NCBI GenBank assembly: GCA_016794005.1
Contig: JAEUKY010000085.1
Span: forward strand, 1 to 40,546
From: Rhodospirillales bacterium
GTDB taxonomy: Bacteria; Pseudomonadota; Alphaproteobacteria; CACIAM-22H2
DNA length: 40,546 bases
Reading direction: 5' to 3'
Numbering within the stretch: position 1 is the first letter of the stretch; the number at the start of each line of letters is the position of its first letter. The notes under the pieces were generated by a model. That model ran no database searches. It was not told the DNA's origin and was given only the letters and a program-made list of their open reading frames with translations. The position numbers and the translations under genes are program-made. Positions 1,894 to 6,431 of this stretch are shown piece after piece.

Positions 1894-2145
1894 ATGGCGG
1901 ACGGCGGCGACACGGGCGGGATTGCGGCGGCGAAACTGAAGTCGTTCGTCGAGCGCATCGAACGTCTGGAGACCGAGAAGGCCGATCTGGCTGCGGACAT
2001 CCGCGAGGTCTATGCCGAGGCCAAGGGCAACGGGTTCGACACGAAGATCATGCGTCAGGTGATCAAGCTCAGGAAGATGGAAGAGCCCGACCGCAAGGAG
2101 CAGGACGAGCTGCTCGACCTCTACCGCGCGGCGCTCGAGGTCTGA
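1894..2145 (+). CDS. gapR: GapR family nucleoid-associated protein (DUF2312/UPF0335)
   Basis: An 83-residue protein. The LKSFVERIERLETEKADLA block followed by DIREVYAEAKGNGFDTKIMR and VIKLRKMEEPDRKEQDELLD is the diagnostic DUF2312 sequence. In Caulobacter the family member GapR is a small, largely coiled-coil DNA-binding protein that recognises overtwisted DNA ahead of replication and transcription machinery. Residues 14-40 form the long helix and residues 45-83 the second helical part. The start is preceded by TGGAGA. The upstream region carries a consensus DnaA box. It is convergent with phaR, leaving only four bases between the two stops. The family assignment is secure; a nucleoid role here is inferred from homology. 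Confidence 0.92.
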   Translation: MADGGDTGGIAAAKLKSFVERIERLETEKADLAADIREVYAEAKGNGFDTKIMRQVIKLRKMEEPDRKEQDELLDLYRAALEV

Positions 2146-2149
2146 GGCT

Positions 2150-2809
2150 TCAGGACTTCTTCGACAGGTCCGAAAGCCGGGCCTGCATGGCTTCGAGCTG
2201 CTTGCGCAGTTCGTCCAGCGATTCCGTGCCCTGAACTCCCGCACCCGGCTCGGCCGACGGAGCCGCCCCGGACGGCGCCTTGCCGCCATCGAAGCCGAAC
2301 GGTGCCCACATCTTCATCGCGTTCTGCAGCATCGCCATGTTCTGTTTGCCGATCTCCTCGATCGTGCCGCCCATGGGGGCGCCGAACGGGAACATGCCGC
2401 CGAAGGCCTGCTGCATGGCCGTGCGCATCTGCTCCTGGTTGCGCGAGAACGCCGACATCGAGTTCTCGAGGTAGCGCGGCACCAGCGCCTGCAGGTTGTC
2501 GCCGTAGAACGAGATGAGCTGGCGCAGGAACGTCACGGGCAGCATGTTCTGGCCGCCCTTGCTCTCTTCCTCGACGATGATCTGGGTCAGGACGCTGCGG
2601 GTGATGTCCTCGCCGGTCTTGGCGTCGTGCACCACGAAATCGGTTCCCTGCTTCACCATCGTGCAGAGATGGTCGAGCGTCACGTAGCTCGACGTCGCCG
2701 TGTTGTAGAGACGGCGATTTGCATATTTCTTGATCTTGACCGGTTCCTTCCCGGCGTCGCCGGAGGCAGGGGCGTCGGCCGCGGGCGGCACGTTGGTTGT
2801 GTCTGTCAT
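2150..2809 (-). CDS. phaR: Polyhydroxyalkanoate synthesis repressor PhaR
   Basis: A 219-residue protein. After a Pro/Ala-rich leader it carries VKIKKYANRRLYNTATSSYV, the PhaR DNA-binding N-terminal domain, then EDITRSVLTQIIVEEESKGG and LPVTFLRQLISFYGDNLQAL, the PHB accumulation regulatory domain. The C-terminal half has a Met/Gly-rich linker and ends in a heptad-like helix, ESLDELRKQLEAMQARLSDL. PhaR proteins bind both PHB and promoters of phasin and synthesis genes, releasing DNA when polymer is present. The ATG at 2809 is preferred over an in-frame GTG at 2851, which lacks family sequence after it. It is divergent from the PHA operon across a 110-base gap, the usual setting for control of that operon and itself. 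Confidence 0.95.
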   Translation of the reverse strand: MTDTTNVPPAADAPASGDAGKEPVKIKKYANRRLYNTATSSYVTLDHLCTMVKQGTDFVVHDAKTGEDITRSVLTQIIVEEESKGGQNMLPVTFLRQLISFYGDNLQALVPRYLENSMSAFSRNQEQMRTAMQQAFGGMFPFGAPMGGTIEEIGKQNMAMLQNAMKMWAPFGFDGGKAPSGAAPSAEPGAGVQGTESLDELRKQLEAMQARLSDLSKKS

Positions 2810-2919: not shown

Positions 2920-3396
2920 ATGACCGCCGATCCGCCCAATCTCGACGAGCTCGCGAGACGCTATCTCGACCTCTGGCAGGACCAGATCGCCGCCATGTCG
3001 GCCGATCCGGAAATCTCGCGCACGATGGGCCGCTACGCGCAGCTCTGGGCCACGCTCGGACCGGCGGGAATGGCGGGCATCTGGGCCGCGGCGGCCGAAG
3101 GGTTGAAGGGGGCGGGGCCGGGTGCGAATGTGTTCACCGATGGCCCGTTCGCCGAATTCTTCAAGCACGCCGCAGGACCGGCCGCCCCCGCGCACGGGGC
3201 CGCGCCCGCTGGCGCTGCACGTGGCGATCGCGGCGACGAGCTGGCTGAGCTGCGCCGCCGCCTTGCCGTTCTCGAAGAGAGGGTTGCAGGAAACGCCGGT
3301 AAGGCTGCCGGGGCTGGCGTGGCATCCAAGCCTGAAGGAACGGGCGGAAAGTCTCGCAAGCGAACTCGCAAGCCATCCGGAACCGGCGTTCCGTGA
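2920..3396 (+). CDS. Small PhaE/PhaM-like PHA-associated protein
   Basis: A 158-residue protein at the head of the PHA operon. Residues 8-35 (LDELARRYLDLWQDQIAAMSA) resemble the start of PhaE/PhaM-type polymer-associated proteins. The middle (residues 36-85) is helical with many Ala and Gly, followed by an Ala/Pro linker. Residues 106-122 (ELAELRRRLAVLEERV) form a short coiled coil, and the tail GGKSRKRTRKPSG is basic. This layout recalls PhaM, whose basic tail ties granules to DNA, and PhaE, which activates class III synthases; neither assignment is firm. The last 215-275 bases are also read in another frame by the next gene. Third-position GC in this frame drops after about 3180, so this tail could be a constrained dual-coding stretch or an artefact of a frameshift. 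Confidence 0.6.
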   Translation: MTADPPNLDELARRYLDLWQDQIAAMSADPEISRTMGRYAQLWATLGPAGMAGIWAAAAEGLKGAGPGANVFTDGPFAEFFKHAAGPAAPAHGAAPAGAARGDRGDELAELRRRLAVLEERVAGNAGKAAGAGVASKPEGTGGKSRKRTRKPSGTGVP

Positions 3397-4426
3397 AGCG
3401 CTGGGCCGCGAGATCCGCCGCCGCCTCGCCGATTTCCACGAAGGACTGACGCGCTACCGCCGGCATCCGTGGCGCCGTCCGCTCGAATGGCCGGCGACGG
3501 TCTGGCAGGAAGGCACCACGCGCGTCTACGACTATGGTCCGGCGGCACCGAAGGGCGCACTTCCGCTGCTGCTCGTGCCTTCGCTCATCAACCGCGCCTA
3601 CGTGCTCGATCTCGACGAGGGCAACTCGCTCGCGCGCTTCCTCGCCGCGCGCGGCTTCCGGCCGTTCCTCGTCGACTGGGACGCGCCGGGCGACGTCGAG
3701 CGCGGCTTCGGGCTGTCGGCCTATATCGACCGTCGCCTGACCGATGCGCTGAGTGCCGTCGAACGTGCCGGCGGCACGCGCCCGGCCGTGCTCGGCTACT
3801 GCATGGGGGGCCTGCTGGCGCTGGGCCTTGCGGCGCGCCAGCAGCACCGGCTGTCCGGTCTGGCGCTGCTCGCCACTCCTTGGGATTTCCATACCGAACG
3901 GACGGATCTCGCGCTCGGTATCGGCGACGCGCTGCGACCGTGGTGGCCGTGGATCGACGCGGCGGGCGAACTGCCGGTCGACGTGCTGCAGGCGATGTTC
4001 GCGGCCCTCGATCCGTTTCTTGCAGCGCGCAAGTTCCGCGGCATCGCCGGCGTTCCCGACGACAGCCCGAAGCTGCGCGCGTTCCTCGCACTCGAAGACT
4101 GGCTCAACGACGGCGTACCGCTGTCGGCCTCCGTCGCCCGCGAGACGCTGGTGGGCTGGTACGGCGAGAACAGCCCGGCCAAGGGCAGGTGGACCCTGTC
4201 GGGCCGCGCGGTGCTGCCGCACGTCCTCGACCTGCCGGCGATGTGCGTCATTCCGGCGCAGGACCGCATCGTGCCGCCGGCGAGTGCCCGCGCACTTGCA
4301 GCAAAACTGAAAAGGCCCGACACGCTCGAACTCCAGCTCGGCCATATCGGCATGGTCGTCGGCGGGCGCGCGAAGACCGAGCTCTGGGAGCCGCTGGCGC
4401 AGTGGCTGGGGCGCTTGCCCGGTTGA
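3140..4426 (+). CDS. phaC: Short poly(3-hydroxyalkanoate) synthase, PhaC-like alpha/beta hydrolase
   Basis: About 428 residues, shorter than class I synthases (near 600) and closer to class III PhaC. Homology-like sequence starts at GPRPLALHVAIAATSW. Conserved parts are RRHPWRRPLEWPATVWQEGT, a LLVPSLINRAYVLDL strand, the synthase box GYCMGG with the nucleophilic Cys at base 3800, DRIVPP with the likely Asp, and GHIGMVVGG with the likely His, so the catalytic triad is intact. The product polymerises hydroxyacyl-CoA on granules. The start is uncertain: GTG 3122 has a GAAGGGGG upstream, ATG 3128 and ATG 3140 are in frame, and high third-position GC begins only near 3182. Any of these overlaps the previous gene out of frame by more than 200 bases. 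phaA follows after 57 bases. Confidence 0.88.
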   Translation: MARSPNSSSTPQDRPPPRTGPRPLALHVAIAATSWLSCAAALPFSKRGLQETPVRLPGLAWHPSLKERAESLASELASHPEPAFREALGREIRRRLADFHEGLTRYRRHPWRRPLEWPATVWQEGTTRVYDYGPAAPKGALPLLLVPSLINRAYVLDLDEGNSLARFLAARGFRPFLVDWDAPGDVERGFGLSAYIDRRLTDALSAVERAGGTRPAVLGYCMGGLLALGLAARQQHRLSGLALLATPWDFHTERTDLALGIGDALRPWWPWIDAAGELPVDVLQAMFAALDPFLAARKFRGIAGVPDDSPKLRAFLALEDWLNDGVPLSASVARETLVGWYGENSPAKGRWTLSGRAVLPHVLDLPAMCVIPAQDRIVPPASARALAAKLKRPDTLELQLGHIGMVVGGRAKTELWEPLAQWLGRLPG

Positions 4427-4483
4427 CGCGGCCACGCGTAGACTGACGGCCAATCCGCGAGAATTCCACAACGGGAGAGACCA

Positions 4484-5656
<1,173 letters not shown>

Positions 5657-5705: not shown

Positions 5706-6431
5706 ATGTCGGGACGTGTAGCGATCGTGACGGGCGGAACGCGCGGGATCGGCGAAGCCATCAGCACGGGTCTCCGCGATGCCGGCTACAAGGTGGCCGC
5801 CAATTACGGCGGCAACGATTCGGCCGCGCAGGAATTCACAAAGCGCACCGGCATCCCTGCCTTCAAGTGGGACGTGTCGAAGTACGAATCGTGCCTTGCG
5901 GGTGTGAAAGAGGTCGAGGCGAAGCTCGGCCCCGTCGACGTGCTGGTCAACAACGCCGGCATCACGCGCGACGGCACGATGCACAAAATGACGTTCGAGC
6001 AGTGGGACGCGGTCATCCAGACCAATCTCGGCTCGTGCTTCAACATGAGCCGGGCGGTCATCGAAGGCATGCGCGCGCGCAAGTTCGGCCGCATCGTCAA
6101 TATCGGCTCGGTCAACGGGCAGGCCGGCCAGTACGGTCAGGTCAACTATGCGGCGGCGAAGTCGGGCATCCACGGCTTCACCAAGGCGCTGGCCCAGGAA
6201 GGTGCCTCGGCCGGCATCACCGTCAACGCGATCGCGCCCGGCTACATCGATACCGACATGGTGCGCGCCGTACCGCCCAACGTGCTCGAGAAGATCGTCG
6301 CGCGCATCCCGGTGGGGCGCCTCGGCAAGGCGTCGGAGATCGCGCGTGGCGTCCTGTTCCTCGTGTCGGACGACGGCGGCTTCGTGACCGGCTCGACCAT
6401 GTCGATCAACGGCGGCCAGCACATGTATTGA
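5706..6431 (+). CDS. phaB: Acetoacetyl-CoA reductase (short-chain dehydrogenase)
   Basis: A 241-residue short-chain dehydrogenase. The cofactor loop is TGGTRGIG (residues 9-16), the structural motif VNNAG is at 81-85, and the catalytic triad is Ser135, Tyr148 and Lys152 in NIGSVNGQAGQYGQVNYAAAK. The sequence ends with GSTMSINGGQHMY, the PhaB C-terminus. It reduces acetoacetyl-CoA to (R)-3-hydroxybutyryl-CoA with NADPH, supplying the synthase two genes upstream. GGGGAGAAGG precedes the start. A strong hairpin with a T-run follows the stop, so it is probably the last gene of the operon. Confidence 0.97.
   Translation: MSGRVAIVTGGTRGIGEAISTGLRDAGYKVAANYGGNDSAAQEFTKRTGIPAFKWDVSKYESCLAGVKEVEAKLGPVDVLVNNAGITRDGTMHKMTFEQWDAVIQTNLGSCFNMSRAVIEGMRARKFGRIVNIGSVNGQAGQYGQVNYAAAKSGIHGFTKALAQEGASAGITVNAIAPGYIDTDMVRAVPPNVLEKIVARIPVGRLGKASEIARGVLFLVSDDGGFVTGSTMSINGGQHMY

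Follow-up and report, generated by a model that had tools for sequence, protein, structure and literature searches.

The window, a stretch of 40,546 nucleotides from a Rhodospirillales genome (contig JAEUKY010000085.1), carries a gene for a short class III-like PHA synthase (phaC, 3140..4426, plus strand) whose 5′ end lies inside a smaller gene on the same strand. This small PhaE-like partner gene (2920..3396, plus strand) starts with ATG, comprises 158 codons and is defined by its open reading frame and by a family alignment of 58 members (A1). Translation of phaC from the ATG at 3140 would yield 428 aa; alternative starts are an ATG at 3128 and a GTG at 3122, the latter giving an ORF of 434 aa (3122-4426). 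Depending on the start, the two genes share 257 nt (ATG 3140) or 275 nt (GTG 3122), or 215 nt if counted from 3182, where the alignment with relatives begins. An earlier note on this DNA had described the same ORF pair with a shared stretch of 215–275 nt; its coordinates and both translations agree with the ORF listing, and the range was reproduced. The partner codons begin at position 3 of the PhaC codons, and over the dual-coding overlap (3140..3396, plus strand) this out-of-frame arrangement is kept in relatives, with both frames constrained.

The surrounding genes are those of a PHA operon. A divergent phaR for the polyhydroxyalkanoate synthesis repressor (2150..2809, minus strand) was recognized by TIGR01848 (E = 3.5e-44, above the cut-off), PF07879 and PF05233, and is adjoined by a GapR/DUF2312-like nucleoid protein gene (1894-2145, plus strand; NF010247 above cut-off). 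Downstream of phaC follow, on the plus strand, a phaA-type acetyl-CoA C-acetyltransferase (thiolase; 4484..5656; TIGR01930, 472.6 bits) and a phaB-type acetoacetyl-CoA reductase (5706..6431; TIGR01829, 351.5 bits), both above their cut-offs. Elsewhere the same genome encodes two more PhaC-like proteins of greater length (G000:C274:6405-6818 and G000:C124:8955-9368; frames of about 606 aa, partial matches at 33% identity), which brings its synthase-like genes, with the overlapping phaC, to three or more.

The PhaC of the window matches PF07167 and TIGR01836 (E = 1.7e-49), the latter at 168.7 bits and thus under the curated cut-off of 365.3 bits; class III is its nearest class, but by this rule it is not a member. 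The catalytic triad C221, D375 and H402 is invariant in the family alignment. The AlphaFold model (pTM 0.91; all models were calculated for single chains with family alignments) has the PHA synthases 9knl, 5xav and 5t6o as its closest solved structures, and the protein thus combines the Cys-Asp-His triad with the alpha/beta hydrolase fold of a PHA synthase. Near its N-terminus lies the anchor GPRPLALHV (3197..3223, plus strand), where constraint is dominated by PhaC and the partner frame encodes an Ala-rich linker, overlapping the start of a predicted helix of residues 24–44 (3209..3271, plus strand; block pLDDT 91–95 over residues 21–40) that is located inside the overlap.

The partner protein (16.1 kDa, pI 9.5) opens with a conserved N-terminal motif, NLDELARRYLDLWQDQIAAMSAD (2938..3006, plus strand), outside the overlap, in which L11, A12, L18, W19, Q20 and Q22 are nearly invariant in A1. 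AlphaFold predicted helices at residues 8–27 (block pLDDT 93–97), 30–64 and 104–131, with connecting segments of lower certainty (pTM 0.35). The last of these is a coiled coil inside the overlap (3229..3312, plus strand; block pLDDT up to 95) that includes ELAELRRRLAVLEERV, and it is followed by a basic tail (3313..3393, plus strand) with seven Lys or Arg and one Asp or Glu in the last 28 residues. Both proteins are therefore predicted to have an ordered helix that is encoded by the overlap. A coiled coil and a basic tail in the first frame had already been noticed from the sequence of the window, and both recur in nearly all relatives; in 92 of 102 loci the last 30 residues carry a net positive charge. 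Searches of the 58 aligned members against Pfam and NCBIfam returned no family matches, a fold search with the low-confidence model (pTM 0.35) gave nothing significant, and comparison with the sequences of solved structures retrieved generic coiled coils only. The partner is an undescribed protein family, absent from Pfam and NCBIfam.

Relatives were collected by protein searches that yielded 29 loci in related genomes and 80 named loci, 90 distinct loci being used, with PhaC identities of about 44–78%. They include Azospirillum, Thalassospira, Telmatospirillum, Tagaea, Stella, Pelagibius, Thalassobaculum and many metagenome-assembled genomes. All 90 loci have the out-of-frame pair in an identical register, with a median overlap of 215 nt (range 161–302). 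In these loci the PhaC frame starts near GPRPLPLHL, where the +2 frame encodes an Ala-rich linker; in nearly all of them the +2 frame continues with a coiled coil of the pattern (E/Q)LxRRLAxLExRLAxLE and then a basic tail, and in most the third frame is shut at about +73. Such a comparison had been proposed in the earlier note as a means of finding out whether both frames are conserved or a single fused frame exists: both are conserved, and no fused PhaE-PhaC frame was present in any locus examined.

A wider sample of 241 Alphaproteobacteria genomes, drawn evenly across the class, contained 104 with this PhaC at E ≤ 1e-40. For most of these the 5′ regions were obtained, and 85 loci with a conserved PhaC N-terminus were counted. 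The overlap is kept in 74 of the 85, seven have a short partner match and four none. Most short-partner loci end before or just inside phaC; L202 was counted as short, being mis-binned by the anchor rule, though its coil is present. Judged from these seven short and four absent cases, the coil of the partner is dispensable in some lineages. A short partner frame devoid of the coil, mostly ending before or just inside phaC, was seen in L166, L167, L168, L179, L184, L189 and L190, which retain the PhaC N-terminal segment and represent natural losses of the overlap. PhaC matches in five genomes (G056, G257, G261, G142 and G113) were reported with one in-frame stop; these may be match ends overrunning the stop or real interruptions.

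Could the second frame be open merely by chance? The earlier note had pointed to a switch of high third-position GC from the first to the second frame near 3180. The switch is real, but it is not diagnostic of frame use, because position 3 of PhaC is position 1 of the partner; over the overlap, GC3 of the PhaC frame (0.79) and GC1 of the partner frame (0.80) are one and the same signal. When synonymous PhaC codons were resampled, the fraction of trials leaving the second frame open, given the PhaC protein, had a median of 0.65 over 62 representatives and was 0.50 for the window. An open second frame was accordingly rejected as evidence on its own, chance openness being about 0.6 per GC-rich genome. 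Since a single genome of this kind leaves the frame open by chance, the sequence of the window alone is undecided and it is the relatives that decide. In four loci from genomes of 0.40–0.45 GC (L191, L201, L194 and L195) the probability of an open frame by chance is 0.000–0.052, and the frame is nonetheless kept; L031 and L198 (47–50% GC) are uninformative on this point.

Selection on the two frames was assessed from position-specific identities, from synonymous sites and from family profiles. In close pairs, the anchor GPRPLALHV has identities of 0.93/0.95/0.64 at the three PhaC codon positions, which is the pattern of PhaC alone. Over the coil part, in contrast, PhaC third-position identity rises to 0.759, compared with 0.559–0.603 downstream, and PhaC second positions are less conserved; reading of the partner frame should produce this combination. 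The partner-frame identities over the coil are 0.757/0.816/0.748, with raised synonymous identity. Fourfold synonymous identity in the PhaC frame is 0.586 in the coil and 0.488 outside (difference 0.097, bootstrap CI 0.065–0.140), and in the partner frame 0.657 versus 0.418 (difference 0.239, CI 0.193–0.276). This measure does not formally model overlapping codons, and the bootstrap over genomes allows only in part for shared ancestry, the relatives not being independent. In a leave-one-out profile test, whose profiles were drawn from within the same family, the partner frame exceeded what is implied by the PhaC protein with a mean z of 3.9 (p < 0.05 in 42 of 45 representatives), and the PhaC frame exceeded what is implied by the partner protein with a z of 5.5 (43/45). 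Among the exceptions are L029, L110 and L113, in which the coil has disappeared; in L065, L073 and L107 the anchor was one codon off, which should weaken and not inflate the result. Each frame carries family-specific information exceeding what the protein of the other frame imposes, and purifying selection over the overlap is evident in both. A real dual-coding stretch, one of the options left in the earlier note, is thus strongly supported by recurrence in relatives and by constraint in both frames.

Taken together, the data argue for an old and genuine same-strand overlap, situated in an operon (phaE-like gene, phaC, phaA and phaB) that diverges from phaR. Two proteins would be made from it, the partner aiding PhaC; we assign this reading a probability of about 0.78. 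The conserved overlap and the constraint in both frames are observed here, whereas translation of the two products, their complex and its function are inferred. One mRNA would then give rise to two proteins: ribosomes would read the partner from 2920 to the stop at 3396, and phaC would be initiated in the other frame at an internal ATG, most likely that at 3140, either independently or by translational coupling. The 200-odd common nucleotides would encode the N-terminal helix of PhaC after GPRPLALH and, at the same time, the C-terminal coiled coil and basic tail of the partner. The partner would most likely be a subunit that binds PhaC and either activates it or nucleates granules, like class III PhaE or Ralstonia PhaM. 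In 78 of 90 loci the PhaC frame contains an ATG within 90 nt upstream of the anchor, compared with 2 of 90 for the free frame, and any PhaC-frame start codon precedes the anchor in 89 of 90. Shine-Dalgarno sequences of at least four matching bases are slightly enriched before PhaC starts (27% versus 17%), that at 3140 being weak. Since most loci (78 of 90) thus provide PhaC with an ATG, internal and possibly coupled initiation seems indicated and frameshifting unneeded; independent internal initiation would be the best reading of these start codons.

Programmed ribosomal frameshifting (+1/−2), which would yield a fused protein, either exclusively or in addition to the two individual ones, and had been offered as an option in the earlier note, is formally possible given overlapping frames. 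However, besides the excess of PhaC-frame ATGs over the free frame just described, no conserved slippery run was found at the junction among the relatives inspected there, and we consider this route very improbable. The related proposal that a single-base change or an assembly error split a naturally fused PhaE-PhaC gene drew on the run of five C at 3185-3189, and the assembly of the window genome is indeed fragmented (402 contigs). It is refuted by independent genomes, some of them complete chromosomes (e.g., L048 and L107): in every overlapping relative the partner is in the +2 frame and never in frame 0, the register is constant, and the C-run is not conserved among relatives. We therefore give it practically no credence.

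It could also be argued that only the upstream part of the partner is functional and that, from about 3180 on, its tail is merely a frame that high GC and the residues of PhaC happen to keep open. The high chance openness in single GC-rich genomes and the 11 class-wide loci without the full overlap would agree with this, but it fails to account for the recurrence of coil and basic tail in nearly all loci, the partner signal beyond that implied by PhaC in 42 of 45 representatives, the retention of the frame in AT-rich genomes and the constraint on PhaC synonymous sites over the coil; it is thus highly unlikely. Alternatively, dual coding might be real while the partner is not a synthase subunit at all, but a phasin, a tether between granule and DNA, or a regulator of the operon. 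The basic tail and coiled coil would suit granule-DNA attachment, and no homology fixes the role of the partner. Nevertheless, the partner is tightly and invariably linked to this type of phaC, and its order and architecture are PhaE-like, which makes such roles rather unlikely beside a synthase subunit encoded by overlap.

The partner gene is unannotated in all five Azospirillum plasmid records inspected, A. brasilense Sp7 p3 included, according to the PLSDB gene table, which is known to be incomplete. These records list phaR, an "alpha/beta fold hydrolase" (corresponding to this phaC), thiolase and reductase in the order of the window; in Azospirillum records a small hypothetical gene also occupies the position matching the GapR/DUF2312-like gene. 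In A. brasilense Sp7 the partner frame is present at 3568-4233, contains MAESSESDTPSLETLAQRYLDLWQ and overlaps the PhaC CDS at 4004-5251, which is annotated as AMK58_RS26790 with a GTG start. The case for an omission in Azospirillum is thus strong but not final; the overlap exposes a conserved family lacking in Pfam and NCBIfam and passed over by the RefSeq-derived annotation of this strain. No report that brings together overlapping genes, PHA synthase and phaE turned up in a literature search; co-located phaE and phaC have been annotated in Defluviicoccus (PMC9041414), in passages that describe no such overlap. As a tentative and on balance doubtful extension, many Alphaproteobacteria might possess a further kind of PHA synthase, in which a short PhaC works with an obligate partner not described before, the coil of this partner being encoded by the same DNA as the N-terminal helix of PhaC. 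If so, two possibly interacting segments, the coil and the helix, would be genetically locked together, and the enzyme examined in earlier studies of such synthases, R. rubrum PhaC1 perhaps among them, would have been incomplete. It is predicted that these PhaC enzymes need, or are altered by, a small partner that was probably left out of assays. The few lineages without the overlapping coil offer a natural experiment, for example on relaxed PhaC synonymous sites.

Among known systems, the class III PhaE-PhaC pair (PF09712/TIGR01836) has the same layout of a short PhaC beside a partner gene; in the window, too, the partner gene is the immediate neighbour of a phaC of the short class III type. 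Like the window partner, the PhaE proteins extracted for comparison have an N-terminal helix motif rich in aromatic residues, a coiled coil in the C-terminal part and a basic tail, but they are about 345–445 aa long, compared with 158 aa for the window partner. Position and architecture thus suggest a PhaE/PhaM-like synthase partner. The label "PhaE-like" of the earlier note holds in this respect, but not as sequence membership: PF09712 had no match at its gathering score in the window genome or among the 58 family members, and hhalign aligned the partner with 22 PhaE proteins at 23% probability over 24 coiled-coil columns, a match that any coiled coil would be likely to give. PhaM is an activator of PhaC whose basic C-terminal tail attaches granules to DNA. 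The Ralstonia-type PhaM (NF043076) resembles the partner in its coil-plus-basic-tail layout, although this model was not found in the window genome and matched 0 of the 58 members. In Haloferax mediterranei (subtype IIIA), PhaE (20.4 kDa) is encoded upstream of phaC in one operon and is essential for activity; haloarchaeal PhaE and PhaC coding regions overlap as well, but by 4 nt instead of 161–302 nt (PMC12028471), and, this being another domain of life, the likeness to the window pair is one of layout. The phaC1 operon of Rhodospirillum rubrum (Rru_A0276 PhaR, A0275 PhaC1, A0274, A0273) has the gene order of the window, with consecutive locus tags and no annotated partner, and phaC1 was overexpressed from the annotated ORF alone (PMC4026134, PMC4958253). 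A phaC1 primer differs by one mismatch from the EDWLND codons of the window PhaC family, while R. rubrum qPCR primer sequences had no match in the genomes sampled. R. rubrum phaC1 probably belongs to this family with its partner gene unannotated; the consecutive PhaR and PhaC1 tags suggest the same omission, orthology and overlap there being presumed. Bacteria seldom have long same-strand overlaps under two-frame selection; the one described here is both deep and widespread and belongs to a biotechnologically important pathway. Like pop/ompA, where long overlapping genes ignored by annotation give two proteins from one stretch (PMC7103648), the window pair hides a second gene; in comparison with overlaps of that type, it is on the same strand, has been retained in many families within one class, and its two products probably act in one pathway.
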